DNA of 64,000 nt from an uncultured Ruminococcus sp. Its GTDB lineage: Bacteria > Bacillota > Clostridia > Oscillospirales > Acutalibacteraceae. The notes under the pieces were generated by a model. The model had not been told where the DNA came from. It saw only the letters and a program-made list of their open reading frames with translations, and ran no database searches. Shown here piece after piece: positions 34,301 to 55,060 of the stretch. The translations under genes were made by a program, and so were the position numbers. The stretch spans positions 124,001 through 188,000 of the forward strand of contig CACYTI010000001.1 in the NCBI GenBank assembly GCA_902777275.1, read 5' to 3'. How positions within the stretch are numbered: the first letter of the stretch is position 1; each line of letters begins with the position of its first letter.

Positions 34301-35108
34301 GGACGATATGGGTTATATGTTCTACCAATGCAAGGCGCTGACAGAGCTTGACCTCAGCAGCTTCGATACCCGCAAGGTGACGTATATGTGCGATATGTTC
34401 TGCGGCTGTTCGTCGCTGACCGTGGTCGACATCAGCGGATTTGATACGGCAAGCCTCGAGAACGCGGATGATATGTTCAATTCAGCCGGTCAGCTTTCAA
34501 CGATCTATGCGGGCAAAAAATGGAGTATACCCAACGCGGCGAGCGCTATGGATATGTTCCTTTACTGCAATAATCTGAAGGGCGAAGCGGGAACGGCATA
34601 TACCTTTGAAAACCGCAGCGGCGCGTACGCCCGCATAGACGGCGGTGAAGGTGATCCCGGTTACTTCACGGGCAAATACTGTGCGCTGACAATAAACGAC
34701 GCCGCCAACGGCACGGTTACGGCAAATGTGACAGGCTCCGTCCTTGCCCGCGAGACCGTGACCCTGACCGTCACCCCCGGCGAGGGCTACGCTGTCGCAG
34801 ACGTGACCGTCAACGGCGAGACGATCGAGCCCGTAAACGGCGTTTACTCCTTTGAAATGCCCACCTCAGACGCGGTCGTTTCGGCAAGCTTCATCGCGAT
34901 CGGCGACGCGAACCGCGACGGTTATATAGACGTTCGCGACGTGACCGTTATACAGCGCCACCTCGCGGAGACGGAACTTATCCCCGAAGAGTACCTCGTT
35001 TTTGCCGACGCAAACGGCGACGGTGAGATAACAATAGACGACGCGACGCTCCTGCAAATGTATTTAGCGGAGTATGACGTTGCGCTCGGAAAGCATAACA
35101 TACGATAA
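31344..35108 (+). CDS. Large secreted BspA-like surface protein with dockerin
   Basis: 1254 residues. Signal peptide ends PFTASAA (about 31). Then come a beta-helix-like region with a GLUG-type segment (FDGQGHTL, about 409) and divergent InlB-B/Flg_new repeats (about 271-345, 692-760, 765-835, 1112-1180; typical YxITVA...GxV and YSFEMP.EDVTVTA). A BspA/DUF285 leucine-rich array is at about 925-1060 (repeated LDLSSFDT...V..M..MF..C). A type I dockerin ends the protein (about 1186-1250: DANRDGYIDVRD and DANGDGEITIDD calcium loops). It should dock to a cohesin on the cell surface. AAGGAGG precedes the ATG. Confidence 0.88.
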   Translation: MKKSKIPISILLSLLMVISLFSIVPFTASAAICEDINYIDADGSEKTLERAELVTESMDDEVGFFTSAYSWLYVIDDITLTRAICNDYTDLNIILGDNATLTVTGLMNIKYASLNIYCQSGGTGKLVIDGKIGTGAILAVPNKKSVTINGGIVEVKNASFDAFGSGKLVMNGGTATFTGSPFPQRSAVYADVAFNGGNLTATSSSYGIYKSTTLNYKNATDRITSKNYNGKVTVADGKVFTDGSGNYYAGILTDEERKAIAGKTLQPAPNAHFVTIDSSLANGALTTDKKATVSGQTVTVTVDPTVAPKSGYIVGGVTVNGTAATKADDTHYTFSMPDSDAAVTAVLTPDPACFSQDGDVYTIHNENGWDVFCDLLAENTKGYFDGKTVLLDDDIAVTRMAGGAVHDFTGTFDGQGHTLTVAYGSEDSPVSDEDKAAPFRNAESGCIIKNLHTAGTIYTSKKYAGGIIGTQYGAVRIENCRSSVTINSLTAADGTHGGIVGRNGNSTSAKLTIDGCVFDGKILSVGETATTDCAGFVGYKGNSGTVTITNSIYAPAEIEEDETEVASGSATFVRNGSAGNNCYYTRALGSTENQGKQAYSISAAGDVTLALSGEATFYSVSGITAYKNNNGLKYGDTYYAGENDEVTLTLGYTRPAGYAFTGYTAGAGTLTDNVLTMPADNVTVSAGFEQAIYTITVAPATHGTVKSIKSAAYYGEYVALLIFPERGYCVKSVAVNGNVLEENGGYWFYMPDEDVTVTAEFESATYQITVADTPNGSVSASVNTAHYKDPVTLTVQPDDGYQTVFVNVNGVAVIPENGVYSFEMPGEDVTVTAGFAEPDKCCFDSVTNTLYLSGDVNSEDVWSYKERAERILVAQGGCVLPQNSKYLFDGFSKVTSIDLTGADTSNVYIMWRLFRNCTALEEITFGSGFDTSSVTDMSEMIFGCKNLTTLDLSAFKTSRVEKMFNMFYGCESLRSVDLSSFDTGNVDDMGYMFYQCKALTELDLSSFDTRKVTYMCDMFCGCSSLTVVDISGFDTASLENADDMFNSAGQLSTIYAGKKWSIPNAASAMDMFLYCNNLKGEAGTAYTFENRSGAYARIDGGEGDPGYFTGKYCALTINDAANGTVTANVTGSVLARETVTLTVTPGEGYAVADVTVNGETIEPVNGVYSFEMPTSDAVVSASFIAIGDANRDGYIDVRDVTVIQRHLAETELIPEEYLVFADANGDGEITIDDATLLQMYLAEYDVALGKHNIR

Positions 35109-39836: not shown

Positions 39837-40334
39837 CTAAATAGTGATTTGCGTTCCGTCAAAAAAGAATAACATAACATTGAGATGCGCCGGAGCCGCC
39901 TTCGCTATTATATTCGTTACTCTTTTGATTTGTGCGCTGTTCAAATCGTCGTTTATATAAATACTCATTCGCTGCAGCGTTGGGTGTTCATCTATGGAAA
40001 AACTCACAATACCGTTGTCGCGCAGGTGCTTTGTGAAACCGTTAAAGGTTCCCTTGGCTCCCAAATCCTGTTCAAAGCCGGTTAGCAGGGCGCGGCGCTG
40101 CTCAACCGTGAGGTCAGTCTTTTCCTTATCCGAAAACCGCTCCCTCTCGCTAAGTCCGTAGGTCTCGGCGGTCGCGATAAAGCTCTCACGCTCAAACTCC
40201 TGAAGCCTGTTAAACAGCGGGTCAAGCCCTTCTGCATATGCTTTCAGCTCGCAGACCGCCGTGCTCCCCTCCTCAAGGCTGTAAACGCCAAGCGGAGCAA
40301 GCTTGTTTTTCATCGAATCAAAGCTGCCCATCAC
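39837..40334 (-). CDS. Phage baseplate protein, XkdU-like
   Basis: 165 residues. Last gene of the cluster, directly after baseplate J (four-base overlap). Position and pattern (YAEGLDPLFNRLQEFERESFIATAETYGLSERERF, cited in part) fit the XkdU/DUF2313 family, the gp48-like protein that completes the wedge. No fibre gene follows. Confidence 0.65.
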   Translation of the reverse strand: MMGSFDSMKNKLAPLGVYSLEEGSTAVCELKAYAEGLDPLFNRLQEFERESFIATAETYGLSERERFSDKEKTDLTVEQRRALLTGFEQDLGAKGTFNGFTKHLRDNGIVSFSIDEHPTLQRMSIYINDDLNSAQIKRVTNIIAKAAPAHLNVMLFFFDGTQITI

Positions 40335-41425
40335 TCCACCTCGATCTCAACGTCGCCCGCGATAAAAAACTGCGAACCGGGAAGCGACATATCATCCATG
40401 ATCGGATTGAATTCATATGTTTCGATACAGCCTGTATCAAGCAAATACTTGCCCAAATTCGGCAGATACAGCTTGCCGCCCATGGGAAGCGAGGACAGAT
40501 AATCCTCAAAAGCGTCGGTGCATTTTGCTATGACTTCCTGTGCCTCGTAGCCTGCCTTTGCCGTCACCGTTACATACAAATCGTAATATATACCGCCGCC
40601 CGCAGCAACAAGGACATCAACATTCAGCTCGCGCTCATTTTCAACGACCTGCTGCACCTCGCGAAGCTTATCGTTGGTTATGCTTCCGTCGGTAGAAGCA
40701 ACATAAATATTTACCGTGCCCGCTCCGCGCGCCTTTCCGACTACTCCCGCCTTTGACACCCCTTCTACCGAGGTCGCCAGCACGGTATAATACGAGGCGT
40801 TCATTCCGTTCGGCTGATTGACATAGCTTTCGAGGATACGCGCCCTAAGCGTCGTGTCGCTCTCCTCGTTCGCGCCTCCCTTAAACGTGCTGTAATTTGT
40901 CACCGAGTCGATTTCGGCGGGAACGCTCACCGGCACCACAGCCGTATTGATTTTAATGTTTCCGCGGTATCCCGCAATTTCGGCTTCTGCGGGAATTGTA
41001 ACGGAGTACGACCCCGCCTCGATTTCACCTTCCTCGGTCGTATACAGTCTTACAGGGCTGTCGGTGTCGGTGGACACCGCCGTTCCGCGGGGAATAGCCA
41101 GGCTGTAATTCTTTGTTTCGTTCACTCTGAAAGTCAACTGCCCTGCCGCTTTTATCGCATGTCTGCGTTCAAGACCGCGCTGCTGCGCAAAGCGATCCAA
41201 AAAGACCCCCGTCGCGGTTGACGGAAAAAGCTGACGCCTCAGCCACTCCATATGAGTCTGCATATTATAAACCTCACCCGCTAAGACCTTAAGGCGTATC
41301 GCAATATCGCCTGCCTCGTCAAATTCCGCATCGCTTTCCTGCATATAACGCGATTTCATTCTGTCATATATTTCCTGATACGTTTCCGTATGTACGCACC
41401 TCCTCTGTTCTGCTTTCGCCGTCAA
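40331..41425 (-). CDS. Baseplate J family protein
   Basis: Up to 364 residues. Baseplate_J features: TYQEIYDRM start region, FLDRFAQQRGLER, IPRGTAVSTDTDSPVRLYTTE, and GGANEESDTTLRARIL, which is near-invariant in this family. It corresponds to Mu gp47/XkdT and belongs to contractile-tail wedges. The start is unclear: the TTG at 41425 has no ribosome site, and the first ATG (41359) would cut into the conserved N-terminus. The ribosome-like GAGGAGG lies between them. Confidence 0.88.
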   Translation of the reverse strand: MTAKAEQRRCVHTETYQEIYDRMKSRYMQESDAEFDEAGDIAIRLKVLAGEVYNMQTHMEWLRRQLFPSTATGVFLDRFAQQRGLERRHAIKAAGQLTFRVNETKNYSLAIPRGTAVSTDTDSPVRLYTTEEGEIEAGSYSVTIPAEAEIAGYRGNIKINTAVVPVSVPAEIDSVTNYSTFKGGANEESDTTLRARILESYVNQPNGMNASYYTVLATSVEGVSKAGVVGKARGAGTVNIYVASTDGSITNDKLREVQQVVENERELNVDVLVAAGGGIYYDLYVTVTAKAGYEAQEVIAKCTDAFEDYLSSLPMGGKLYLPNLGKYLLDTGCIETYEFNPIMDDMSLPGSQFFIAGDVEIEVE

Positions 41426-41705
41426 CGTTGACCGATACCTGCACTGCTCCGTCCGCCATTCCGAGCACGCGGACCGTGGTGCCGGAGTATTTCACCAGCG
41501 CCTCACCGAACAGCAGCTCTGTCTGAGCCGCCGTTGCACCGCGTTCTGATCCAAGCTCTCTGTCATATACAAAGCTGCCCTTGGGCACGGTCAGGCACAG
41601 CATGGCGCGCTGAAACAAAACGTCTCTGCCGTATATTCTTTTCGCGCCGCCCGTTGTATCGGTCTCAATATCTCCGTTTGTTATTTTCACATCAATCATT
41701 TCCAA
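41364..41705 (-). CDS. gp25/XkdS-like baseplate wedge protein
   Basis: 113 residues. Pattern YGRDVLFQRAMLCLTVPKGS, then FVYDRELGS and a final beta segment. This matches the gp25-like lysozyme-fold wedge protein found beside baseplate J in contractile tails. It overlaps the spike gene by 14 bases and runs into the J gene. Confidence 0.72.
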   Translation of the reverse strand: MEMIDVKITNGDIETDTTGGAKRIYGRDVLFQRAMLCLTVPKGSFVYDRELGSERGATAAQTELLFGEALVKYSGTTVRVLGMADGAVQVSVNVDGESRTEEVRTYGNVSGNI

Positions 41706-42075
41706 GCTCCCCGCCGTCTGTCGGCTCCACGTCGTTTAAGGGCTCAATACCGTTTATCAACTCCCTGCCGTTGATCAGCACTCTGCCGTCATTCTTCAGC
41801 ACAAGCGTCGCGCCGCCCTTTGAGTAGAGCATCAGCTCGCCCGCTTCAAGTCCGACCGCTTTTTTCAGCACCCCGAGCCCGACCTCGCCGTCGTCAAGCG
41901 GAAGCACCACCGCTCGCTCTCCGGCGGGAGGAATACTTACCACACCGTAGGGAAAGCACATTTCGACCCCCTTGTGCTCGCCCGACGACGACACCGCGCC
42001 GCCCGCGCTCAGCTCGCCCTTGACGGCATTGGGCGAGCTGATTGAATTATTTGTTATGTAACTCATCAGCCACAT
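41692..42075 (-). CDS. Baseplate spike-like protein (gpV/gp5-like)
   Basis: 127 residues from ATG 42075 (AAAGGAGC upstream); ATG 42162 is rejected. The middle is an OB-like beta segment (MCFPYGVVSIPPAGERAVVLPL) and the end a repeat-like strand series (LYSKGGATLVLKNDGRVLING). This is the layout of small membrane-puncturing spike or phage baseplate V proteins. No DUF4150/PAAR cap seen. Confidence 0.65.
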   Translation of the reverse strand: MWLMSYITNNSISSPNAVKGELSAGGAVSSSGEHKGVEMCFPYGVVSIPPAGERAVVLPLDDGEVGLGVLKKAVGLEAGELMLYSKGGATLVLKNDGRVLINGRELINGIEPLNDVEPTDGGELGND

Positions 42076-43015
42076 AAAAACGCTCCTTTCGCAATGTGAT
42101 CTCGCTGCGCTCTCCGCTTTTGTCTGCCGAGTATTTAACCCTTTCAACGCGCAGCCCCTCAAGCCTGCCCAAAACGCTGTCCTCCACCACAGCCTTCTTT
42201 CCGGTAAGACCGGTATGGCAGCCCGCGCAGCTCAGCTTTAAAAGATAGCTGCTGCGGTTGCTGTTATCCAACATTTTGTCCGCCGTAGCAGGAGTAGCTT
42301 TGTCGGACGCGGCGTTTACATACCTGACGCGCCTGACATGAGCCGCTTCGGGGTTTTGATTTTTTATGACCGAGCTGTAGGTGTTTGCCTGCATGAATTT
42401 TAATCTGACCTCCGAGAGCAGGCGGCAGCGCAAACGGCTCTCGCGCAGCTCATAATATGCCGTTCCGCCGCCGCAGTCGGAGAAAGTAACGCTCTCCTCC
42501 GTGGCTTTCCCGTCAAGGATAGCCCTTCCGTCGCCTGTGATCCTCGGCTCGCATTGATATCGGTTGCGGCAAAAGCTTTGCAATGCCTGCCAGTGCGACA
42601 TACCCTTGTCGATTTTCATTTGGTTGTAATACGGCACGGTATCGCGGTTTTCAAGCTTTATTCCGAACGGCTTCAAATGACGGCTCTCCATTAAAACGGC
42701 GCTCGGATAAACATAGGTCAGCGGCTCAGCCTCGTTGTCGAGCAGCGCGGCGGCAAGGCTCCTCGCGCTGAGCATTGTAACAACACCCTTGCCGCGTTTC
42801 AACGTTATTATACTATCGAGCTGACCGACGAACACAAGCTTGTCCCCGTCATAAGCGCATATACGATCCGAACCGCTACGCAGACCCTCATCATAGACGC
42901 AGGTCAGGCACAGGCTGTCGGCAGGCACTCCCCTGTCGCTGTCGAGAGTCACCTTAATAACCTTGTCCGGCTTTTTTTCAATGCCGTTTATATCTGTTAC
43001 CGTAAAGCTCAGCAC
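42047..43015 (-). CDS. Tail hub / late control protein D-like (XkdQ)
   Basis: 322 residues, GTG start with AGGAGG seven bases upstream. Hub-type pattern: early beta domains (FTVTDINGIEKKPDKVIKV), AYDGDKLVFVGQLDSI, then SHWQALQSFCRNRYQCEPRI and a C-terminal segment GKKAVVEDSVLGRLEGLRV. Fits gp27/gpD-like hubs that hold the spike. Overlaps both neighbours. Confidence 0.7.
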   Translation of the reverse strand: MLSFTVTDINGIEKKPDKVIKVTLDSDRGVPADSLCLTCVYDEGLRSGSDRICAYDGDKLVFVGQLDSIITLKRGKGVVTMLSARSLAAALLDNEAEPLTYVYPSAVLMESRHLKPFGIKLENRDTVPYYNQMKIDKGMSHWQALQSFCRNRYQCEPRITGDGRAILDGKATEESVTFSDCGGGTAYYELRESRLRCRLLSEVRLKFMQANTYSSVIKNQNPEAAHVRRVRYVNAASDKATPATADKMLDNSNRSSYLLKLSCAGCHTGLTGKKAVVEDSVLGRLEGLRVERVKYSADKSGERSEITLRKERFYVADELHNK

Positions 43016-43524
43016 AGCGCCACCTCCTGTCCGCCTATATTCTCATCGGGGCGCTTGACCTGAGGATTGAGCGCAACCAAACGGTCGATAACGATATCAA
43101 ATCTGTAAGAGACGTCCCAAAGTGTCTCACCCTGCGCCGCAGTATACGAAGTCTGCCTGTCCTCGGTCTCATACTCCATGACCTCTCTGAAAACAAAGCT
43201 GTAAAGCAAAATGTCGGGCTTGGGATAGCCCTTTGCTTTCAACTGCTCAAAAACCGCGTAAACCGTTCCGAGCTCCGGAATAGCCAACACGCCCGCGCCG
43301 CCGCTCTTAAACAGCGAAAAAAGACGTGCAAACTGCTCGCCGCAGTCGCTGCCGTACAGCTCGCCCTCGCCCTTTATAAGCATATTGCGCCTGCCGGTGT
43401 TTTGTATGTAAGACCTTCCGTAAGGCGCGTGAAGCTCGTTCACCTGCTTGGCGCACTCAAAGGTTATTTCGCGCGGATTGTGGCGCCACTCCGCGCCCTT
43501 AAAGCGCATGGGAACCAATTTCAT
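43009..43524 (-). CDS. LysM-containing tail/hub-linker protein (XkdP-like)
   Basis: 171 residues. The N-terminal part resembles tail-hub linkers (PMRFKGAEWRHNPREI); the C-terminus has a short LysM (YTAAQGETLWDVSYRFDI, VALNPQVKRPDENIGG). In contractile phages it normally follows the tape-measure gene; here it follows a 45-residue ORF. Confidence 0.72.
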   Translation of the reverse strand: MKLVPMRFKGAEWRHNPREITFECAKQVNELHAPYGRSYIQNTGRRNMLIKGEGELYGSDCGEQFARLFSLFKSGGAGVLAIPELGTVYAVFEQLKAKGYPKPDILLYSFVFREVMEYETEDRQTSYTAAQGETLWDVSYRFDIVIDRLVALNPQVKRPDENIGGQEVALC

Positions 43525-43658
43525 CTCAGCCTCGCCTCCTCCTCTTCGGGCAGCGCGCGGCTGTAGCGCAGACTCTCGCGCTCCATCTGCTCGCTCAGCG
43601 TTTCATAATCCCCGTCCGCCGTGATTTTGTCGGCGAGCTCCGCCGTAATATCATTCAT
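43521..43658 (-). CDS. 45-residue protein in the tape-measure position
   Basis: ATG at 43658 with AAAGGAGC upstream; overlaps both neighbours. Sequence starts MNDITAELADKITADGDYET and is rich in Glu and Arg. Its place, between the tube-like gene and the LysM gene, is where a chaperone and tape measure (normally over 500 residues) belong. It could be a remnant, chaperone or length-setting substitute. Confidence 0.55.
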   Translation of the reverse strand: MNDITAELADKITADGDYETLSEQMERESLRYSRALPEEEEARLR

Positions 43659-44013
43659 ACAGAATGCTCCTTTCTCTCGCCACAATAGTGACGGTATACT
43701 CCGTTTCTCCGCGCGGAAGAACATCGCTTCTTTCTCTGCGCACAAAGCACGAGGTATAACGTTCTATCCTTCCTTCGCCGACTATCTCCACAAAGCTTAA
43801 ATTCTCATCAAAGGGATATTCCTCCGAACGGTTAAGCTTGATTTGTATGTAATACATCTTTTCCGGAATGACCGCAACGGGCTTGTCCGCCAGATATTCG
43901 TATATTTCCTTCTGCGTCTGCTTCATGGTTCTGCGCAGAGCGGTCACGCCGCCGAGAACGGTCCCGTTTACGCGCACGAGCAGATCGCTTCCTTTTTCGT
44001 AGTCAAAAACCAC
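43651..44013 (-). CDS. Probable tail-tube-like protein
   Basis: 120 residues, GTG start with GGGGAGG seven bases upstream. All-beta pattern: LLVRVNGTVLGGVTAL, YYIQIKLNRSEEYPFD, and TSCFVRRERSD. The layout recalls tube proteins of the gp19/XkdM fold, but it is short and I cannot confirm this. It could be a connector instead. No sheath gene precedes it. Confidence 0.4.
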   Translation of the reverse strand: MVFDYEKGSDLLVRVNGTVLGGVTALRRTMKQTQKEIYEYLADKPVAVIPEKMYYIQIKLNRSEEYPFDENLSFVEIVGEGRIERYTSCFVRRERSDVLPRGETEYTVTIVARERSILYE

Positions 44014-44446
44014 TTTGATCCTCCCCGCTCAGACAAAACGATGCGTCGAATTCAATCTTCCTGAAAACGGAGTTGATATTCGGGTCAAACTCGATCGGAG
44101 ACGCGGAGACTCCGGTGATGATATGACCGCTGTCTGCGGCTTCAAGGCTTGACAAAAGCTCGCTTACAACGCCCGACAAGCCCGTGCCGTTTTCGCTCGC
44201 GGGAGCGTAAACCCGTATCTCCGCTTTGACGCTGTAGCGCTCTCCCGAAACGGAGGATGAAAGTCTGCCGCCGAAGAAACCGTTTTCGCGGGTTATCTGA
44301 GTGATACTCACAACCGCAAGCATTCCGCGCACGGGAGTTTCAATTTTCTCGGTGCCGTACCCGCGCACGAAGCGGACCTCCGACAGAGCTCCGCGCTGTT
44401 TCAGCCCCATGATAACGGAATCAATCTGCTGTTGGATCTGAATCAT
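44003..44446 (-). CDS. Tail completion/terminator-like protein
   Basis: 147 residues from ATG 44446 (GGAGG six bases upstream). Located after the head-closure gene, like tail terminator proteins (YqbJ/XkdJ region). Mixed alpha/beta: an N-terminal helix QQIDSVIMGLKQRG and a strand VRGMLAVVSITQI. Assignment rests on order and size. Confidence 0.5.
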   Translation of the reverse strand: MIQIQQQIDSVIMGLKQRGALSEVRFVRGYGTEKIETPVRGMLAVVSITQITRENGFFGGRLSSSVSGERYSVKAEIRVYAPASENGTGLSGVVSELLSSLEAADSGHIITGVSASPIEFDPNINSVFRKIEFDASFCLSGEDQSGF

Positions 44447-44789
44447 AGTCATCCTCCCGTTCTTCGCCGTAGGGCACTAAAATCGCCCACTCATAAACAG
44501 GCGTATCCTTAACAAAATAGGTTTCACACCTTTTTACAATATATTTTCCTCCGCGCGATTCTATTACCGATTTGTTTTCTTCAAGACGGTGGGAGGACTT
44601 GCCGACATACAGATATTTTTCGCGCCGTGTCGTACCGAGCTCGCGGCATTCTCCGCCGATATATATTTTGTTGCGGTAGCGCAGCGGCTCCACAAAGGCG
44701 CGCGTGCTCACGCATTCGCCGTTTTGCCTTATTACAACTCCGGTTCCGTACCGTCCTATTTCTTTGTCTACACAATTCAATAAGCTCAT
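44421..44789 (-). CDS. Head-closure-like protein
   Basis: 122 residues, ATG at 44789 overlapping the previous stop (TGATG). Small beta-rich protein (VVIRQNGECVSTRAFVEPL, EKYLYVGKSSHRL). In place for head-closure (YqbH/gp16-like) proteins; no stronger sequence evidence. Confidence 0.5.
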   Translation of the reverse strand: MSLLNCVDKEIGRYGTGVVIRQNGECVSTRAFVEPLRYRNKIYIGGECRELGTTRREKYLYVGKSSHRLEENKSVIESRGGKYIVKRCETYFVKDTPVYEWAILVPYGEEREDDYDSDPTAD

Positions 44790-45145
44790 CAAATCACCCT
44801 GCCAAATAAGAATCCGCCCGCGTCAATCAAATCGGGGCTGGCGTCTGTAAGCTCGCGCCACAGCTTTTCCGCCTGAACCTGTTTATCGGCGGATGACGCC
44901 AGCTTGACGTCACCCGCTGTAAACTCACTGATCTGACCGCTTCCGCACATGGCATACAGCTTAAAAGCGTAAGCCGCTCCGAGCATTTCAAGCCGCCTTT
45001 CGTCCGCGCTGCTTGGGTTTTGCTTTGTGCAGCGCGAGGTAACATACAGACAGGCGTCCTCGATAAGCCCGCGCCAGCGCGAAAGCTCGTCAGCATCAAT
45101 ATCGGCAAGCACCAAAAATCTGTCGCACACATTCGCAATATTCAA
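44789..45145 (-). CDS. Head-tail connector-like protein
   Basis: 118 residues, mostly alpha-helical: VLADIDADELSRWRGLIEDAC and RRLEMLGAAYAFKLYA. This fits the gp6/YqbG connector family that docks to the portal. Directly after the capsid gene, as expected. Confidence 0.65.
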   Translation of the reverse strand: MNIANVCDRFLVLADIDADELSRWRGLIEDACLYVTSRCTKQNPSSADERRLEMLGAAYAFKLYAMCGSGQISEFTAGDVKLASSADKQVQAEKLWRELTDASPDLIDAGGFLFGRVI

Positions 45146-45162
45146 GGGCTTACCTCCGTTCC

Positions 45163-46167
45163 TTAAGACAATGTTTTAGCCGCTTCGGTAAAGATCTTCG
45201 CAAAGCCCGCCGTACAGGTTATCGCCGCGCGTTCAAGCTGACGGTCGATCAGTCTGTCGTAATCGGTGGTAACGCCGCCCGCCTGAACCATTTCAAGAGC
45301 GCAGTTTTTATCAAGACCGATGATCGTGCCTGCGGTCATCTCGGGAGCGTGAAGAAGCGCGGCACCGAGCGGAGTGACCATTTTGCCGGTACCCTGGAAA
45401 TCGAGACCGGCGCGGGGATCCTGCATCTGGGTCATGCCTAAAATAGCCTGCATCTCCTGAGTGGGAGCCAAAATAGTGTTGAGCTCATAGGGGCTGAGAT
45501 TCGCCCAAAGCTTCACCAAATCAGCGTAAGTAAGCGTACCGCTTGCCGCGACCGAAACATTTGAAGCCGCGTTGCTGTTGCCGTCGCCGTTAATGAGCAC
45601 GTCGATAGCATCGCGGAGCTGGGCTCTCGCTATGTAAGCGCCGATCTGACTGAGCGTGACCGTGAAAAGGTCAAGGCGCTGAAAGCGCAGAGCTTCATAG
45701 GAAGCCACAAGCATTCTGCCGCGCTTGTGAAGCTTAACAAGGTTTTCTCTCGTCTTGATCTCGGTTCCGGGGATCGCAGCGCCCTCGCCGACGATTTTGA
45801 GTGTTTTATCGTCGTCGGACGGAACCGAAACAACGCTGCGGTAATCCATGCCCTCAATGTCTGTGACAGTCGCCACAAGGTTGGGAAGAATATCCGCTCT
45901 CTCCATGCCTTGGCGCACGGCGCGGCTCACGTATTCGGGGAACAGCGCTGCGGAGTTGGAGCTTTGGAAAAACTTCTCAACGCAGTCGCTGCCTCTGCCG
46001 CTCACCCTGATATCAAATCTTTTGAGCTGGCGCGAAAACGCGTCGAGTCCCTCCAGAGCGGTGCCGACGTAGTTTTCCGACGGGTCAAGCCCCTCAAGCG
46101 CGGCGGTGAGACCGCCCTTGCACTGATACATACCCTTCTCAATAGTAATATTCTCAAAATTAGCCAT
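45163..46167 (-). CDS. HK97-fold major capsid protein
   Basis: 334 residues. Capsid-like pattern: YVSRAVRQGMERADILPNLV, KTRENLVKLHKRGRMLVASY, DVLINGDGN, and the C-terminal CTAGFAKIFTEA. GGGAGG precedes the ATG. No long N-terminal scaffold domain. It is the shell of the particle. Confidence 0.85.
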   Translation of the reverse strand: MANFENITIEKGMYQCKGGLTAALEGLDPSENYVGTALEGLDAFSRQLKRFDIRVSGRGSDCVEKFFQSSNSAALFPEYVSRAVRQGMERADILPNLVATVTDIEGMDYRSVVSVPSDDDKTLKIVGEGAAIPGTEIKTRENLVKLHKRGRMLVASYEALRFQRLDLFTVTLSQIGAYIARAQLRDAIDVLINGDGNSNAASNVSVAASGTLTYADLVKLWANLSPYELNTILAPTQEMQAILGMTQMQDPRAGLDFQGTGKMVTPLGAALLHAPEMTAGTIIGLDKNCALEMVQAGGVTTDYDRLIDRQLERAAITCTAGFAKIFTEAAKTLS

Positions 46168-46185
46168 ATTATTACCTCCCGATCA

Positions 46186-46521
46186 TTAAAGAATAAAACC
46201 GACTTCGGTTGATGTGGCGTCCACCACAAGCAGTTCTCTGCCCGAATTGCCGACCGCCACGCCGCCGTTTCCGTCGGCGGCAAGCTTTTTGTAGCCGACC
46301 GCGATTTTTGACGCTGCGGGCATTCTCACATAGCCCGCAGTCTGCACCGCCGCGTAACCGCCGCGCAGCCCCACGCAGACGCCGCAGAAGACATCGTTAG
46401 CCGAGCAAACTGTCACGGTGCCGTCGCTGCTGAGCTTGACAGGCACACCCGCAGCGGTAAGGCCGCTGTCAGCGATAAAGGTGGTCACATTTTCTCCGTA
46501 TCCGTTAAAATTTACGTTCAT
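46186..46521 (-). CDS. Capsid decoration-like protein
   Basis: 111 residues, beta-rich with Gly and Val (VPVKLSSDGTVTVCSANDVF, GYAAVQTAGYVRMP). Small proteins of this form and position, between protease and capsid, are head decoration or cement proteins (DUF2190/gpD-like). Confidence 0.6.
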   Translation of the reverse strand: MNVNFNGYGENVTTFIADSGLTAAGVPVKLSSDGTVTVCSANDVFCGVCVGLRGGYAAVQTAGYVRMPAASKIAVGYKKLAADGNGGVAVGNSGRELLVVDATSTEVGFIL

Positions 46522-46537
46522 TACAAACCTCCGTTAA

Positions 46538-47515
46538 TTAAATGGTAAATTGTCCGAATGATTCGGCGCTGTTGTTGACGCTTCCGCCGCAAAGCTGCGG
46601 CTTAGGCGCGTATTCTCTGTTTTTCTGTTTTTCAAAGGCATTTTTAAACTCTCTGAGCTGAGCCACACTCATAGCTTTCGCCACGTCCTCCATGGTGCCG
46701 CGCGAAACATCGGGCTGCACGGCAGCCGAAAGTCTCACCACGTCAGCGACAAGGTTTTCGCGGTAGTAAACTCCGTCCTTTGCCGACTGCATTAAGCTCT
46801 CGATATATCCCGACAGCTTTTCGCACTCGCCGTCGCTGAGCGTTAAGCTTTTGCCCGCCTTCAATTGTTTTATAATATCTTCCATACTTCTTTCCTTTCT
46901 TTTAAATGACTTGATCACGCCCGCCTCTCTCTGAGCCGGAACCGCGACAAAGCTCCATTCGTAGGCGTCCACAGGCTCCGTAAGCTCTCCGCAGCACAGT
47001 CTGCCGCCGTAGGTTTCTCCCTTTTGATGAGGGCAGACGGCGATATCCTCGCCGCAAACGCTGCACTTCGTTTCGCGCACGGCGCAGCCGACGCTGACCT
47101 CCTTCACGATGCCGCTGTCGATCGCCTCTATCAGCGCGCGACTGCCTTCGTTTTTGGGAATATACGCACGCGCCGTGAGCCTGAAATACTCGTCGCCTGT
47201 CGCGGTTTTTCGCCCGGGCACCTGCTCTGCGCCGCAGGCAAATATCCTCGCCGCCTGATTTTTCGCGCTGGGACTGTGGTCAAAAATACCCGTTTTGCCC
47301 ACAAACAGCTTTTCAAGCGCGAACAGCGATTCAACGGTAAAGCGTTCGCCGTCGCGGTCAACGTCGTTGTCGCAGAGCGCCACGGAAAACACGTAAACCT
47401 CCTCGGCACTTAGCTTTCTGCGCGTGTAGGCGTTTATAAGCGCAAGCTCCTCTTCCGAGGGCGTTTGATCTCCGCCGCTCACAGCCGCCGCTTTTATGAT
47501 CGCGTTATTCGTCAT
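46538..47515 (-). CDS. Prohead protease/scaffold-like protein (XkdF-type)
   Basis: 325 residues from ATG 47515 (GGAGG upstream). N-terminal half fits phage head maturation proteases: FSVALCDNDVDRDGERFT, IFDHSP (likely catalytic His) and VKEVSVGCAV (likely Ser). A Cys/His insertion (CSVCGEDIAVCPH) may bind zinc. EWSFVAVPAQREAG marks the domain end; the C-terminal helices (about 215-325) may act as scaffold. Overlaps the portal stop. Confidence 0.7.
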   Translation of the reverse strand: MTNNAIIKAAAVSGGDQTPSEEELALINAYTRRKLSAEEVYVFSVALCDNDVDRDGERFTVESLFALEKLFVGKTGIFDHSPSAKNQAARIFACGAEQVPGRKTATGDEYFRLTARAYIPKNEGSRALIEAIDSGIVKEVSVGCAVRETKCSVCGEDIAVCPHQKGETYGGRLCCGELTEPVDAYEWSFVAVPAQREAGVIKSFKRKERSMEDIIKQLKAGKSLTLSDGECEKLSGYIESLMQSAKDGVYYRENLVADVVRLSAAVQPDVSRGTMEDVAKAMSVAQLREFKNAFEKQKNREYAPKPQLCGGSVNNSAESFGQFTI

Positions 47516-48644
47516 TTTCAACCTCCAAACCGTATTGATTTTCTATCTGCATGGCGCGGGCGTTGTTAAGCCTTGCCTGAGAAAGCTCCACCGCGTCCTG
47601 CAAATTTATGTCGTTCCAAATGATTTTATATCCGCAGGCGAAGCCCGACATTCTCAAATGAGCATCCATGATCCTGCGGATCACAGGCTCGACCGCCATG
47701 CGGTAATACTCAAGCTCGCTCGTTAAAATATCCGCCTGCTGAGCGCTCATTCTCTCGGTGCTCGACCACGATATCCCGAGCAAAAACGGCGGGATACCGA
47801 GCTTTGCGATCAACTGCTCCAAAATGATCCTGACGGGCGTCGAGCAGTCGGGCATTTGATTTTCGGCGCCGATCACCCTGACCTTCACATCGCCCACCGA
47901 AACAAAGTCGCACACGTTGTCGCCGCGCATCGCTTTTTTCCACTCGTCCGCTATTATTCTCGCGCTTTCCTCGCTGAAGCTCCCGTCCTTCGGGTCGTAG
48001 GTGACGGCAAAACGGATATCGCCCGCCCTTTCCCAGTTGTTTTTCAGCGATTTAAAGATCCTCAGAAGCAGCTCGCTCACAAAGGGAAGCCCTTCAAGCA
48101 GCGAGGTTCCGCGCACCGTGCCGCGCTTTTGCTTCAACAGCGCCGGCAGCACAAGCGACTGATTTGCCACAGGCCTGCCGTCGCAGGCGCGGCACACAAT
48201 TATTTCAAGCGGAGAGCTGCCCGCTTCAAGCCTCACGTCGTCGGGGTTTGCGTTGTAAAGGGCGCATATCCCGCCGTGATCCGCGCTCGGAAGTATCTCC
48301 CCGACCGCCTCGCCGTAGGTCAGCAGGCTGTCGGTGTAGTCGCTTATAAACGACGCCAAGCCCATTCCCGAGCCGTTCGTTTTTACAGAGCGCACAAAAC
48401 GGTCGGCGATCTCCTGCGCCGCAGGGTCGTCGGTAACGACCCTGAACTTCCCCATGAGCCGCACGATTTTGCCCAGCGCCGCGTCGATCAGCGGCACCGC
48501 TTCCCTCAAAGCGCCGTACAGGACGCGTTCGGCACGGCTCTGAGCCGCCGCGCTCAGCAGGGAAGCCGAACCTCCGAAGCCTCGCGGCACGGTCTGCGCC
48601 ATAGGCAGAGCCGGAGACTCCGTCTGTTTTTTTCTGCCAAACAT
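47505..48644 (-). CDS. Phage portal protein
   Basis: 379 residues from ATG 48644 (AGGAGG upstream). Portal features: RVLYGALREAVPLIDAALGK, LLTYGEAVGEI, GTSLLEGLPFVSELLLRIFK, GIPPFLLGISWSSTERMS and a long C-terminal helix region. The dodecameric portal forms the DNA gate at the capsid vertex. Confidence 0.88.
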   Translation of the reverse strand: MFGRKKQTESPALPMAQTVPRGFGGSASLLSAAAQSRAERVLYGALREAVPLIDAALGKIVRLMGKFRVVTDDPAAQEIADRFVRSVKTNGSGMGLASFISDYTDSLLTYGEAVGEILPSADHGGICALYNANPDDVRLEAGSSPLEIIVCRACDGRPVANQSLVLPALLKQKRGTVRGTSLLEGLPFVSELLLRIFKSLKNNWERAGDIRFAVTYDPKDGSFSEESARIIADEWKKAMRGDNVCDFVSVGDVKVRVIGAENQMPDCSTPVRIILEQLIAKLGIPPFLLGISWSSTERMSAQQADILTSELEYYRMAVEPVIRRIMDAHLRMSGFACGYKIIWNDINLQDAVELSQARLNNARAMQIENQYGLEVENDE

Positions 48645-48654
48645 TAATTTCCTC

Positions 48655-49896
48655 CTATCTTGCGGCGGCGAACACCTGCAAACCGCTGCCGCCCGTAACC
48701 GAAGCGGTGAAATAGCGGATGTCGTCCATGGCATGGTCATTTTCCTTTACGGGCGAGTCGGTGTTTTTCGCCGAGTCCCAGCGGTAGAGCTGAAACTCTC
48801 TCCGCGCCGCCGCGCAGTTTTTGCAAATGCGTATGGTTCCGTTTTTCAGCGCCGCCGATACTTTTCTTATCCCGTTTATAACGTCGTTCTGCGCAGGTCT
48901 TACCTCGAACTCGCCGTAGCGCCGGATCACCTGAATAAAGCTTGCCGCCGACGGGTCAACAACTACACGGCTTATTTTCCTTCCGCGCGCAAGCTCCTTT
49001 AAAGCTGAATAATGCTCTTCGTCGGTTTTCTGAAATCCCTCGCGCCGCGAATCGTAATAGTACTCGTCTATTCTGTACCACACGCCGTCCTTTTTTCCCC
49101 ATAGTCCCATAGAGGTCGGGTTGACCGTGCCGTAGTCGCATGAGATCACAAACTCGCTCATTTCTCCCGACGGAACTTCGCAGTACATTTCCTCGTTAGC
49201 CATAAACGGATAAACCGCGCCGTACACCGCCACCCATTTTCCGAGCACAAAACGCTCGTAGAACACGCCCGAATAAAGCCGCTCATAACGCCGCCTGACC
49301 TTATCGCTCAAAGACGGGTTATCGTCCATGGTAAAGTGCAGATAAAGCGCGTTTTTCCGCTCCGCCTGCAATATCCACTCGCGGTAAAACCAGTGCTCGG
49401 GATGCTCGGGATTGCAGTTGAACCAGAAACGCGAACCCGTGACGGAACACCTCGCCATAGCCTGCTCCACAAATGATCGCGGCATAAGCGCCACCTCGTC
49501 GAACAGCACCCCCGAAAGCGTAACGCCCTGGATCAGCGCCGCCGCGCCTTCGTCCTTGCCGCCGAACAGATAAAAACGGTTTTCCGCTCCGCCGCTGCGA
49601 ACAATAAGGCAGTTTTGACTCAGCTTTTCGGAACAGTCAAAGCCAAGACTTTTAAGCAGAGGCAAAATCGGAGTAACCATATTTCTCCTCAGCGAGCGGA
49701 TGGTTTTTCCGCAAAGCCCGAAATCTCCGCCTCTGAATGCGTAAAACGTCCAGAGAACGAACGACAGCGACATACAAAACGTTTTGCCGCTTCTCACCGC
49801 GCCGTCGCAAATTATCGCGTCGCGGGTGCAGTCGGGCGACATAGAGTGCCACCAGCTCAGCACTCTGATCTGCTTGGGAGTAAAGCTCTCAATCAC
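48655..49896 (-). CDS. Terminase large subunit (PBSX family)
   Basis: 413 residues. Walker A GAVRSGKT (variant with Arg before SGK), Walker B LSGVLFDEVALM, and nuclease-domain acids (CDYGTVNPTSMG, VVDPSAASFI). The ATPase and nuclease needed for DNA packaging appear intact. Overlaps the small subunit by eight bases. Confidence 0.93.
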   Translation of the reverse strand: MIESFTPKQIRVLSWWHSMSPDCTRDAIICDGAVRSGKTFCMSLSFVLWTFYAFRGGDFGLCGKTIRSLRRNMVTPILPLLKSLGFDCSEKLSQNCLIVRSGGAENRFYLFGGKDEGAAALIQGVTLSGVLFDEVALMPRSFVEQAMARCSVTGSRFWFNCNPEHPEHWFYREWILQAERKNALYLHFTMDDNPSLSDKVRRRYERLYSGVFYERFVLGKWVAVYGAVYPFMANEEMYCEVPSGEMSEFVISCDYGTVNPTSMGLWGKKDGVWYRIDEYYYDSRREGFQKTDEEHYSALKELARGRKISRVVVDPSAASFIQVIRRYGEFEVRPAQNDVINGIRKVSAALKNGTIRICKNCAAARREFQLYRWDSAKNTDSPVKENDHAMDDIRYFTASVTGGSGLQVFAAAR

Positions 49897-50374
49897 TGCG
49901 CATTCCCCCTGACTGAGCGCCTCTTCCTATGGCCTCGTACAGCCCCGACACTCCCTCACTTTCTCCGCCCGAGTTTTCAAGCTTTTCAAGCGCCTTTAAG
50001 CGGTCAAAAAATTTGATTTCAAGCATTCCCTCCTTGGGCTTTTTGATCTCCGAAATCAAAAACAGATCCATCCCTTTAAGCTGTTCGGGAGCGGGGTCAT
50101 CCATATACAGCAGCCTAAGCGCGTCCGTTATACCGCCGAACGCGAGTCGGTAATAGCCTGCCGAGGCAAGCCCCGCAAGGGCTCTCTTTCGCGCAGCCGT
50201 CAGCCGCTCGATTTCGTTCAGGATTTTTTCCTCACACAGCATACGGTTCCCCGCCGAAATCCGGTCGCCCCCGCAGCCCGCGCGCTCCGCAGCTTCCCCC
50301 GCGTCTCCCAGACAGACAAAGTAGGCGCAGAAAAGTTTTTCCTTGGGCTTTAATTTCTTTTTGATTGGTGTCAC
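49889..50374 (-). CDS. Terminase small subunit
   Basis: 161 residues. DNA-binding start KPKEKLFCAYFVCLGDAGEAAERAGC (cited in part) is typical. The GTG at 50374 runs directly out of the GGAGG, so spacing is too short for the usual rule; an ATC eight bases downstream of GGAGG is an alternative. First gene of the cluster. Confidence 0.85.
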   Translation of the reverse strand: MTPIKKKLKPKEKLFCAYFVCLGDAGEAAERAGCGGDRISAGNRMLCEEKILNEIERLTAARKRALAGLASAGYYRLAFGGITDALRLLYMDDPAPEQLKGMDLFLISEIKKPKEGMLEIKFFDRLKALEKLENSGGESEGVSGLYEAIGRGAQSGGMRSD

Positions 50375-50458: not shown

Positions 50459-50526
50459 GAAAAAATTTTTTCGGGATTGCCAAATTTTTTTGATTATGGT
50501 AAACTTTAAGCAGGAGTGTGACCGAT

Positions 50527-51225
50527 ATGTTTTTTAAGAAACCGAAAAAACCAAAAAAACTCAGCGCATACACGCTGAGCGATTTAAAACGATATATAGA
50601 CAGGTTTTTCCCCAAGGAAGAAGTTATAACCGACGAGAGCGCTTCATGCGAGGAAGCTGTAGAATACTCCGTTTCCGCCCCCCTGAGGCAGCCGACAGAA
50701 AAAAGCGATATAGCTCCGCCCCGGCAAGAGTCTCCGAAAAACGACTCGGCTCCTATAAATTATTACGCTCCTTCGGCGCCGATGTATCAAGCGCCGCAAA
50801 AAGCGGCTGAAAGAAAAAAGCTCGGCTTTAAAAAGACCGCGCCTGCCGCGAAGCCCACAGCCGACGCGTTAAAACAAAGATTGGAACAAATAGACGAAAG
50901 CTTTTCCGAAATGCTGATGCGCAAAATCGACGAAAAAGGCATGACCGACGCACGGTGCTACAAAAAGGCGCAGATAGACCGCAAGCTTTTTTCAAAGATC
51001 CGCAGTCAGCCTCAGTACCGCCCCAGCAAGCAAACTGCGCTTTCGTTCGCCCTCGCGCTGGAGCTGAGCATCGCCGAGACCCGCGACCTGCTGATGAAAG
51101 CGGGCTACGCACTGTCGCACAGCAGCAAGGCGGACATTATAGTCGAGTATTTTATTATTCACGGAATTTTCGACAAATTCCTCGTCAACGAAGCACTTTA
51201 CGAATTTGATCAGCCCTTGCTTTAG
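50527..51225 (+). CDS. HTH-type protein divergent from the phage-like cluster
   Basis: 232 residues from ATG 50527 (CAGGAG ten bases upstream); GTG 50518 is too close to that site. Basic N-terminus ([20 protein letters not shown]), a disordered Pro/Ser/Ala middle, and a conserved helical domain (about 130-232): [60 protein letters not shown]. This XRE-like domain also ends other Bacillota proteins. A DNA-binding regulator of the cluster is the simplest guess. Confidence 0.65.
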
Positions 51226-52693: not shown

Positions 52694-55060
52694 ATGTTTT
52701 TATCTATGAACTGGATTTCCGACTTTGTTGACCTTTCGGGGCTGGACAAAACGGAGCTTATACATCAGTTTTCCCTGTCTACCGCCGAGGTGGAGAACGA
52801 AATATTCTTCAAAGGCAGCGAGCTAAGCGGAGTTGTCGTTGCCGAAATAAAGTCCGTTGAAAATCATCCCGAGTCAAAAAAGCTTCACCTGCTCAAGGTC
52901 GACGCGGGCGACGGACAGCTCACCGACGTTGTGTGCGGCGCTCCCAATGTGCGCGTCGGCATGAAAACCGCCTTTGCCAAGGTCGGCGCTAAAATCGGCG
53001 AAATCGAAATCGCCCCGAGGGCGCTGGCGGGCTACACCTCCTACGGTATGTGCTGCAGCGAGGCTGAGATCGGAATAAGCGACGACCATTCGGGAATCAT
53101 GGAGATCACCGACGACGTCCCCTGCGGAGCAGATTTAAAAGAAATTTACGAAATTGACGATATAGTGTTTGAGGTTGACAACAAATCCCTCACAAACCGC
53201 CCCGACCTCTGGGGACACTACGGCATCGCCCGAGAATTCGCGGCTTTGGCGGGCAGACCCTTAAAGCCGCTCGACGTTGAAGATCTGACTGTTTTCTCCG
53301 ACCTGCCTTCGGTCGATCTGAAAATCGAGGATCCGCTTTGTCAGCGTTATTCCTGCTTGCAGGTCGAGAACATCAGCCGCTCGGTAAGCCCCGTCAATAT
53401 GCGCATCCGCCTTTATTACTGCGGAATGAGAGCGATAAACTTCCTCGCCGACCTCACAAACTACCTCATGCTCGAAATGGGTCAGCCCATGCACGCCTTC
53501 GACTCCCGCAAGGTGGGCAAAATCAGGATAAAGCGCTTTGACGAGCCGTTTGTTTTCAAAACCCTCGACGGCGTTGATCGCAAGGTCGACGAAAACACGC
53601 TGATGATCTGCAACGACAACACGCCCGTCGCTATCGCGGGAATCATGGGCGGTCTCGACTCCGAGATCGTCGGGGACACCACGACCCTCACGCTTGAATC
53701 CGCAACCTTCGACGCGGCTTCTATCCGCAAGTCAACCGTCCGTCTGGCTCACCGCACCGACGCTTCCATGCGCTACGAAAAGAGCCTTGACCCCGAGCTG
53801 ACCGTTCCCGCTATCGGAAGATTCTTAAGTCTTTTAAAGAAATATGACAGCGGCGTAAAGGTCGTTTCCGCCCTCACCGACGAATACGCCTTCCGCTACG
53901 ACACCGTTGAGCTCAACTTCACAAAGGCTTTTGTCGATCGCTACACGGGCATTGAGATCGACAACGACACCATAGTAAAAACCCTTCAAAGCCTCGGCTT
54001 CAAGGTCACTCTCGAAAACGACGTTTTCGACGTTGTTGTTCCGAGCTGGCGCTCCACGAAGGACGTGACCATTAACGCGGACATTATCGAAGAGATAACA
54101 CGCATTTACGGCTACGACAATTTTGAGATACACACCACCCGCTCTCCTCTTTATCCCGTCAGACCCGACGCCGTAAAGCTCAGCGAGGAAAAAATCAAGG
54201 ATATCCTCGTCAAAAAGTTCAATCTCCACGAGCTTCACTCCTATGTTTGGGCGTACAGCGACGAGCTTAAGGACCTCGGAATAGAGGTCGAGGACAACGT
54301 AAAGTTAGCAAACGCCACCAACCCAAATATCGAAACGATCCGCAATTCGCTTATCCCCACCCAGCTTTGCCAGGTCAAAACGAACGTGGGCTATGCTCCC
54401 GAATTCGGCATTTTTGAGATAGGCAGAGCGGTAACGGGCATGACCGAGGACAACCTCTGCGTTGAAAAGAAGCTCCTCGCGATAACTCTCTACCAAAAGA
54501 CCGAAAACGTTAAATCGCTGTATTTTGAGCTGCGTGACATTTTAGCGGTGATAACCGGCGACATAAAGCATAAGCTCCCCGAGTTTAAAGCAAAGCAGCC
54601 CACCCACGGCTACGAGCACCCCGTCAACCTCAACAGCATTGTTCTTGACGGAAAGGAGATCGGCACGATCGGCATTGTTCATCCCAACGTAGGCAGAAAG
54701 ATCGACAAAAAGGCTTGCATTGTCTTTGCCGAGCTTGATGTACAGGCGTTCGCTGAGGCAGAAACCGCTCCTATCATCTACGAAGAGCCGTCAAAGTTCC
54801 CGCCGATAGATTACGACATCAGCGTTGTGATCCCCAAGGGAGTTCTCTTCTCCGATATGGCAAAGTGCTGGGCGAACGAGGGAAAGGGCATTTTGAAGTC
54901 CGCCAAAATCGTAGACAGCTACGACACCGATATGTTCCACAGCGAGACCGTCCGCTTTGAGTTTTCGTCAAACGAGCGCACGCTTTCCTCAGTCGAGGTC
55001 CAGGAGATCATGGACGCTGTCATAAACAATCTAAAAGAAATCGACGTAAGGCTCCGCTGA
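52694..55060 (+). CDS. pheT: Phenylalanyl-tRNA synthetase beta subunit
   Basis: 788 residues, full length. N-terminal tRNA-binding EMAP/OB domain (ESKKLHLLKVDAGDGQLTDVVCGAPNV, cited in part), B3/B4 editing domain, B5 and a C-terminal ferredoxin-fold anticodon-binding domain (FPPIDYDISVVIPKGVLFSD). GAGAGGAGAG precedes the ATG. Under the Phe T-box with pheS. Confidence 0.96.
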   Translation: MFLSMNWISDFVDLSGLDKTELIHQFSLSTAEVENEIFFKGSELSGVVVAEIKSVENHPESKKLHLLKVDAGDGQLTDVVCGAPNVRVGMKTAFAKVGAKIGEIEIAPRALAGYTSYGMCCSEAEIGISDDHSGIMEITDDVPCGADLKEIYEIDDIVFEVDNKSLTNRPDLWGHYGIAREFAALAGRPLKPLDVEDLTVFSDLPSVDLKIEDPLCQRYSCLQVENISRSVSPVNMRIRLYYCGMRAINFLADLTNYLMLEMGQPMHAFDSRKVGKIRIKRFDEPFVFKTLDGVDRKVDENTLMICNDNTPVAIAGIMGGLDSEIVGDTTTLTLESATFDAASIRKSTVRLAHRTDASMRYEKSLDPELTVPAIGRFLSLLKKYDSGVKVVSALTDEYAFRYDTVELNFTKAFVDRYTGIEIDNDTIVKTLQSLGFKVTLENDVFDVVVPSWRSTKDVTINADIIEEITRIYGYDNFEIHTTRSPLYPVRPDAVKLSEEKIKDILVKKFNLHELHSYVWAYSDELKDLGIEVEDNVKLANATNPNIETIRNSLIPTQLCQVKTNVGYAPEFGIFEIGRAVTGMTEDNLCVEKKLLAITLYQKTENVKSLYFELRDILAVITGDIKHKLPEFKAKQPTHGYEHPVNLNSIVLDGKEIGTIGIVHPNVGRKIDKKACIVFAELDVQAFAEAETAPIIYEEPSKFPPIDYDISVVIPKGVLFSDMAKCWANEGKGILKSAKIVDSYDTDMFHSETVRFEFSSNERTLSSVEVQEIMDAVINNLKEIDVRLR

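Follow-up and report, generated by a model that had tools for sequence, protein, structure and literature searches.

A recurrent sheathless head-and-baseplate gene cluster of Ruminococcus and its relatives, probably a domesticated particle of the gene transfer agent kind

PBSX of Bacillus subtilis packages host DNA; its head genes are accompanied by genes for a LysM protein, a hub, a gp25-like protein, J and an XkdU-like protein, in that order, and it has sheath, tape measure, lysis and repressor genes. Capsid-forming phage satellites (cf-PICI) are mobile islands flanked by att sites, which encode an integrase and their own head and use the tail of a helper phage. The tail of RcGTA is siphovirus-like. 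The stretch analysed here, called the window (64,000 nt from an uncultured gut/rumen Ruminococcus sp., contig CACYTI010000001.1), carries a compact cluster of phage-derived head and tail genes on the minus strand at 39837-50374. Gene transfer agents (GTAs) were defined as in the account of viriforms (PMC9662315): they use caudoviricete-derived proteins, package mostly random host DNA in heads too small for the whole element, deliver it to other cells, are fully endogenised and are inherited mostly vertically, co-diversifying with the host. FpGTA I and II, elements of Faecalibacterium prausnitzii (Borodovich et al., Nat Commun 2026), are described in the main text of that paper with heads of ~40 nm, ~9 kb of DNA (8.4-8.9 kb), no visible tail, and proteomics, and as probably podovirus-like (PMC12946183). 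According to the same text, FpGTA has ten open reading frames (ORFs), baseplate, fibre and lysis genes lie in a second operon of 5.5 kb, and the operon is found in Faecalibacterium, not in Gemmiger or Subdoligranulum; the main text uses neither 'sheath' nor 'tape measure' (PMC12946183). Small-capsid tailed phages have been predicted from gut contigs (PMC7762592).

The cluster is interpreted as encoding a particle of the GTA kind that derives from a phage, has been domesticated and is inherited mostly vertically, and whose contractile tail was repeatedly dismantled; the probability of this interpretation is put at about 0.7. A GTA-like or other domesticated particle had been proposed in the preliminary description of the window, and the recurrence of the cluster, the selection on its genes, the invariant residues of its large terminase subunit and its co-diversification with the hosts support that proposal. 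Since over half of the related genomes searched carry one intact copy of the capsid gene, the cluster looks like a virus machine tamed by bacteria, possibly one that is used to move the bacteria's own DNA.

By ORF count, the cluster (~10.5 kb) comprises 17 tightly packed genes, instead of the fifteen counted originally; the original coordinates were correct. The genes had also been called overlapping, and this was found at 12 of the 16 junctions, but the remaining four have gaps of 10-18 bp. Some gene starts are uncertain: the portal gene probably starts at 48644 (picked by eye) and the spike gene probably near 42075. Neck and linker genes were named partly by position. G000 denotes the genome of the window, other G labels denote genomes, and L labels denote loci.

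49889..50374, minus strand: terminase small subunit TerS (Terminase_2); PF03592 1e-10, phrog_2606
48655..49896, minus strand: terminase large subunit TerL, ATPase and nuclease motifs intact; PF03237 4e-16, PF17289; residues 100% conserved in 82 loci
47505..48644, minus strand: portal protein; PF04860, phrog_30703 1e-103
46538..47521, minus strand: prohead protease/scaffold-like protein, putative function; phrog_16951 3e-96 (function unknown), conserved residues
46186..46521, minus strand: small head (decoration-like) protein; phrog_4588 2e-16, virion structural protein
45163..46167, minus strand: major capsid protein; PF25209 7e-17, phrog_3922 2e-98
44789..45145, minus strand: head-tail connector in the adaptor position; named by position, family in 115 of 119 loci
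44421..44792, minus strand: head-tail connector in the stopper position; named by position, family in 107 of 119 loci
44003..44452, minus strand: tail terminator; family in 96 of 119 loci, modelled homologous domain in L259 resembles phage neck/terminator proteins
43651..44013, minus strand: tail tube protein, 120 residues; 8q01 tail tube profile 8e-7, AlphaFold2 model and Foldseek
43521..43658, minus strand: conserved protein of 45 residues, possible vestigial tape measure, putative role; family in 60 of 119 loci
43009..43524, minus strand: LysM protein with DNA_circ_N-like N-terminus, in the tube-baseplate linker position; PF01476 2e-4, PF07157 below cut-off
42047..43015, minus strand: baseplate hub; phrog_177 6e-11
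41692..42162, minus strand: spike (Mu gp45-like), true start probably near 42075; PF06890 5e-4, below cut-off; phrog_25991
41364..41705, minus strand: gp25-like baseplate wedge; phrog_120 8e-4 (weak)
40331..41425, minus strand: baseplate J; PF04865 1e-41
39837..40334, minus strand: XkdU-like baseplate protein; phrog_521 2e-6

Family, profile and model matches identified the proteins as caudoviricete-derived. The full head module seen earlier was recovered as far as terminases, portal and capsid are concerned, but the 'protease' (46538..47521) found no match of stated protease function, its best match being phrog_16951. All of 114 homologues retain one His, one Ser and a C-C-C-H set (100%), and the product may be a protease/scaffold protein. 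In TerL, the residues that we take to be Walker A (R-S-G-K), Walker B (D-E) and the nuclease Asp are conserved to 100%; the Walker motifs noted in the preliminary description belong to a set of catalytic residues that is invariant in 82 loci. The 120-residue protein, at first a possible tube protein, is a tail tube as judged by profile (8q01, E 8e-7) and by its AlphaFold model (pLDDT 88). The model gave 36 Foldseek matches at E <= 0.001 (TM-scores ~0.5-0.7), among them tubes or necks of phage 812, Mu, monocin, contractile injection systems and a GTA particle; the tube of the solved GTA particle 6tba ranked 12. The 45-residue ORF of the preliminary description is present at 43521-43658; its product has longer counterparts in some sheathed loci and could be a vestigial ruler or tape measure. 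The contractile-type baseplate (LysM, hub, spike, gp25-like, J, XkdU-like) was borne out by family matches, of which that of the spike is below cut-off and that of the gp25-like protein weak.

No unassigned ORF of sheath or tape-measure size was present within 39837-50374 (ORF list). Genes for sheath, tape measure, fibre, lysis, integrase, replication or regulation were not recognised in the cluster by ORF list and family searches, and a genome-wide search for lysis genes was not made. A sheath alignment was searched against 24 genomes, including those of the window and of R. bromii; matches were obtained only in three known sheath carriers, plus a weak one in G080, and none in the window's genome or in R. 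bromii. PF10145 tape measures were found in 9 of the 24 genomes, and in neither R. bromii nor the congeners G185 and G074. In the three sheath carriers tested they lie on contigs other than that of the cluster, and the only one of the window's genome sits in a separate, unrelated prophage. Supply of a sheath or tape measure in trans was therefore rejected, there being no sheath match and one tape measure, in that prophage. The prophage itself (L376, G000:C7 80001-99900) carries a Tn916-type integrase, excisionase, terminase, portal, capsid and tape measure. The original statements that the cluster has no ORF for a sheath or tape measure and no fibre, lysis or integration genes held within these limits.

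Of 200 genomes from the window's family, presumably the Acutalibacteraceae of GTDB, 112 (79 of 135 genera) have a single, stop-free capsid gene, which is truncated at a contig end in two of them. The gene was present in 100 of the 158 good genomes of the family. Across the order, 71 of 394 genomes from six families matched, two of them twice; outside the window's family the count was 36 of 351. A scan of named genomes yielded at least 563 capsid relatives, the best 80 of which include R. bromii ATCC 27255 (capsid identity 82%, all 17 genes), Anaeromassilibacillus and Gallacutalibacter. The named and family sets overlap (e.g. L201/G185 and L257/G003) and are not independent samples. Among the titles and abstract openings listed on gene transfer agents of Ruminococcaceae, of R. 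bromii or more widely (few subscription papers, no bioRxiv), there was no description of an R. bromii-type cluster or of a tail-loss series.

Clusters were fetched from 80 of the 112 capsid-bearing family genomes, mostly one per genus. The check on whether the sheathless order recurs was positive: 31 clusters have tube and baseplate without sheath as in the window, and a further 9 have a baseplate with the tube undetected. Head and neck only were seen in 29, a sheath was kept in 5, 4 were partial and 2 cut by contig ends; the classes rest on our own profiles, and a diverged tube or tail could hide in the 9 or the 29. Seven of the 29 head-only loci were read by eye (L104, L109, L132, L133, L137, L142, L148), and their downstream genes look like non-phage host genes. 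In the head-only locus L177 the order is rearranged, with the three neck genes upstream of TerS. Genome-wide, no J-like gene was found in 8 of 10 head-only genomes searched, the other two having weaker matches on other contigs, and none in G090, which has a partial tail; five other genomes with J in the cluster had one J match each.

The sheath is also kept, in the same place, in four IMG/VR loci. Its identity is supported by PF04984 and PF17482 (above cut-off for L063, below for L060 and L069) and by matches to solved sheaths. Overlapping frames after the tube gene of L063 (6452-7095) resemble by eye the frameshifting tail assembly chaperones; the window has no such frames. On the head tree, tail type changed 17 times, compared with a mean of 37 and a minimum of 30 in shuffles; the smaller number indicates that tail type is heritable but labile. 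Sheath presence required 7 Fitch changes, or 14 losses if ancestral (the label shuffles included one stray empty label), and was correlated with the head (Mantel r 0.43, p 0.015). Because the sheath occupies the same place in 5 of the 80 clusters and in the four IMG/VR loci, it was probably ancestral and then lost. Related genomes with a full prophage, of which the window's cluster might be a random deletion, had been named beforehand as a counter-argument. In part such relatives exist, in the sheathed loci, but the loss is recurrent and the remaining genes are maintained, which argues against random decay; to judge from its genes, the cluster is not the product of a chance deletion.

A PBSX-like killer particle, i.e. 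the head and tail of a defective prophage that kills relatives and packages DNA incidentally, is the best surviving rival, although unlikely. The order of head genes, LysM, hub, gp25, J and XkdU is reminiscent of PBSX, and FpGTA might act in this way according to Borodovich et al. (PMC12946183). On the other side, packaging genes are retained, while no tail genes were recognised next to the head in 29 of 80 relatives; in 8 of the 10 head-only genomes searched, no J-like gene turned up. The contractile sheath and tape measure of PBSX were not found in the cluster, and with no sheath in the window's genome no contractile puncture is expected.

Selection was assessed by comparing all 17 genes with those of 11 relatives. 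The proportion of non-synonymous change (pN) was below that of synonymous change (pS, near saturation) in 187 of 187 comparisons, pN being lowest in the capsid and highest in the tube; by this measure all 17 genes are under purifying selection. Host phylogeny was represented by rpoB in 28 genomes (30 were given, two had no rpoB match). The tree of four concatenated head proteins and that of rpoB have 8 of 25 splits in common, compared with a mean of 0.24 and at most 3 in 1000 shuffles; the Mantel r was 0.66, and of 14 well-supported head splits 1 conflicted with the 8 rpoB splits that have support. By these figures the head module has a tendency to track host phylogeny, with partial congruence. 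Vertical inheritance with co-diversification, as expected of a GTA, was thus observed in part over these 28 genomes, and the sequence data support intact packaging genes and a partly host-linked inheritance. PheT was tried as host marker and replaced by rpoB, since it fell into two divergent groups among the 29 matching of 30 genomes. Within the family, the PheT groups are 43-76% and 29-33% identical to that of the window (52694-55060), which suggests replacement by horizontal transfer.

Selection rather than decay had been argued from the intact frames of the window; pN < pS throughout, invariant TerL residues (82 loci), the recurrent sheathless order and co-diversification with the host point in the same direction. 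They bear on a further rival, a decaying prophage remnant caught before its loss. Such a remnant would account for the unrecognised sheath, tape measure, lysis, integrase, regulation and replication genes and for the repeated changes of tail type. Intact frames, purifying selection on 17 genes, invariant TerL residues, a stop-free single capsid in 112 genomes and the same order across genera make it very improbable.

The cluster is flanked on one side by genes for an ADP-ribosylglycohydrolase, CrcB and a GNAT protein, and on the other by those for an unknown divergent protein, PheS and PheT. No direct word of >=11 bases was common to both tested flanks. Downstream of the cluster, 11 loci (10 family genera and one named genome; capsid identity 51-83%) have a gene for an HflX-type GTPase; elsewhere a GerA-type gene lies upstream in 19 and a gene for an unknown protein of the 386-residue type downstream in 19, both of the latter in 10. 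The name PpiC, given by eye to a downstream neighbour, found no support in Pfam and was not used. Host genes on either side, no integrase recognised, no flank repeat and neighbours conserved in relatives are in accordance with full endogenisation. The divergent neighbour is linked to the cluster in close relatives only:

50518..51225, plus strand: divergent neighbour, possible regulator; phrog_4031 1e-7; adjoins TerS in L181, L182 and L195

Elsewhere in the window, the stretches 31344-35108 and 58334-60028 encode large proteins that look secreted and bear type I dockerin domains (PF00404); dockerin proteins are expected of amylosome-forming relatives of R. bromii.

A protein of ~155 residues follows XkdU directly in 50 of 161 loci (median gap 13 bp; 131 of the 161 have >0.8 kb of downstream sequence). 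It has no Pfam match and, from sequence and place, is read as a mini-fibre. In 10 of the 29 head-only family clusters, the tail terminator carries the C-terminal domain of this protein as a fusion. Three named loci have the fusion as well, and one of them, L257, is the same contig as a family cluster. The AlphaFold model of the L259 fusion (pLDDT 86.5, pTM 0.56) consists of an N-terminal part that matches phage neck/terminator proteins, including lambda gpU, followed by a beta-rich domain. The window and the R. bromii genome have no mini-fibre. A copy elsewhere in the genome was sought and rejected: G000, G509 and R. bromii (G564) gave no match, even with E values up to 1 allowed; G565 and G566 gave weak matches (0.06 and 0.09), the G565 locus being by eye a dockerin-like end.

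A capsid-forming satellite of the cf-PICI kind, with its own head and a helper's tail, is about as improbable as a decaying remnant. Head-only relatives do own terminases, portal, capsid and connectors, and the window's genome does hold an unrelated prophage. Against this, neither integrase nor replication gene was recognised in the cluster, no flanking repeat or att-flanked island was found, the vertical signal is present, the cluster of the window has retained a tube and baseplate of its own, and 10 head-only relatives have an adhesin-like domain fused to the terminator. Least probable of all is a small temperate phage, still active, whose remaining genes lie elsewhere or escaped recognition: the clusters occur as IMG/VR viral contigs (L032-L069) and as GenBank 'Bacteriophage sp.' records, but no replication or integration gene was recognised in or beside the cluster, each genome has one capsid copy, and host neighbours are conserved in relatives.

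Several points weigh against the domesticated, GTA-like particle. Particle, packaged DNA and transfer are predicted for the cluster from its genes. The capsid gene had no match in 88 of 200 genomes of the family and 315 of 351 of the order outside it, and the window's own neighbours are common to just four of 162 other loci compared. Only 8 of 25 splits are common to both trees, and for genes taken singly the Mantel values are no more than modest (0.30-0.63) and lack significance for LysM and XkdU; transfer of parts is therefore possible. The genome-wide mini-fibre search found no fibre or second locus for the window lineage. Finally, the window's TerS matches Terminase_2 nearly end to end, whereas the TerS of FpGTA is described as without obvious DNA-binding domain (PMC12946183).

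If the domesticated particle is accepted, the following mechanism is proposed. Upon induction, a subpopulation of cells would make small HK97-type heads, which TerS and TerL, with no phage genome to choose, would fill with host DNA. Terminator and a very short tube, the latter seated on the LysM/hub/spike/J baseplate, would seal the neck, with the 45-residue protein perhaps serving as vestigial ruler for the tube. Having no sheath, the tail would be unable to contract and would serve as a short non-contractile port. Cell lysis would release the particles, and chromosomal fragments would be delivered to kin; in relatives without a baseplate, the terminator ring may itself attach to the recipient through the adhesin-like domain fused to it. 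More tentatively, and at somewhat less than even odds, we suggest a GTA family of the Oscillospirales, perhaps as old as the host families, in which the tail was dismantled from a sheathed mini-contractile form via tube plus baseplate and a form with no detectable tube to a tailless form with the receptor-binding domain on the terminator, delivery passing through an uncontracted stub tail and lastly through a tailless neck.

If the cluster does encode such a domesticated particle, many Clostridia of gut and rumen, among them the starch degrader R. bromii, inherit the means to package DNA into particles. Some of the host DNA seen in gut virus-like particles would then have a gene-based account, with a named locus for knock-out, and some ~10 kb 'viruses' of virome catalogues would probably be fixed bacterial loci. 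The tail series raises the question of the minimum apparatus for DNA delivery. Among 50,697 phage records, 7 matched: five are unannotated contigs from human faeces, and the other two are copies of Caulobacter phage Seuss (31%); isolated phages include no close relative. The human-faecal 'Bacteriophage sp.' records MT836604 and MT835508 (L296, L295) contain these clusters and may be pieces of bacterial chromosome filed as viruses.

Compared with PBSX, the gene order is alike, and sheath, tape measure, lysis and repressor genes were not recognised in the cluster. Other viral contigs contain more distant relatives of the capsid (26-44%). One of them, the contractile phage-like L077 of IMG/VR, has a related capsid (34%), a decoration-like protein, gp25 and J as in the cluster, but differs by a sheath-family protein, a 689-residue tape measure and further baseplate genes. 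With agents of the RcGTA type (viriforms, PMC9662315), the cluster, known from its genes, has in common caudoviricete-derived head and tail genes, vertical inheritance and chromosomal fixation; it is of a different lineage from RcGTA. FpGTA, compared by its published description (PMC12946183, main text), is likewise a chromosomal operon of ~10.5 kb with TerS, TerL, portal, scaffold and capsid in gut Clostridia, and by analogy with it host-DNA packaging, release and delivery would be expected of the cluster. The 8.4-8.9 kb packaged by FpGTA, set against the 10.5 kb of the cluster, is no more than suggestive of a head too small for the whole element. Unlike FpGTA, the cluster has 17 genes and the baseplate in the same operon, and, in contrast to the second operon of FpGTA, 8 of 10 head-only relatives yielded no J-like gene at another place. 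The hosts also differ: FpGTA belongs to Faecalibacterium, and the family traced here to relatives of R. bromii.

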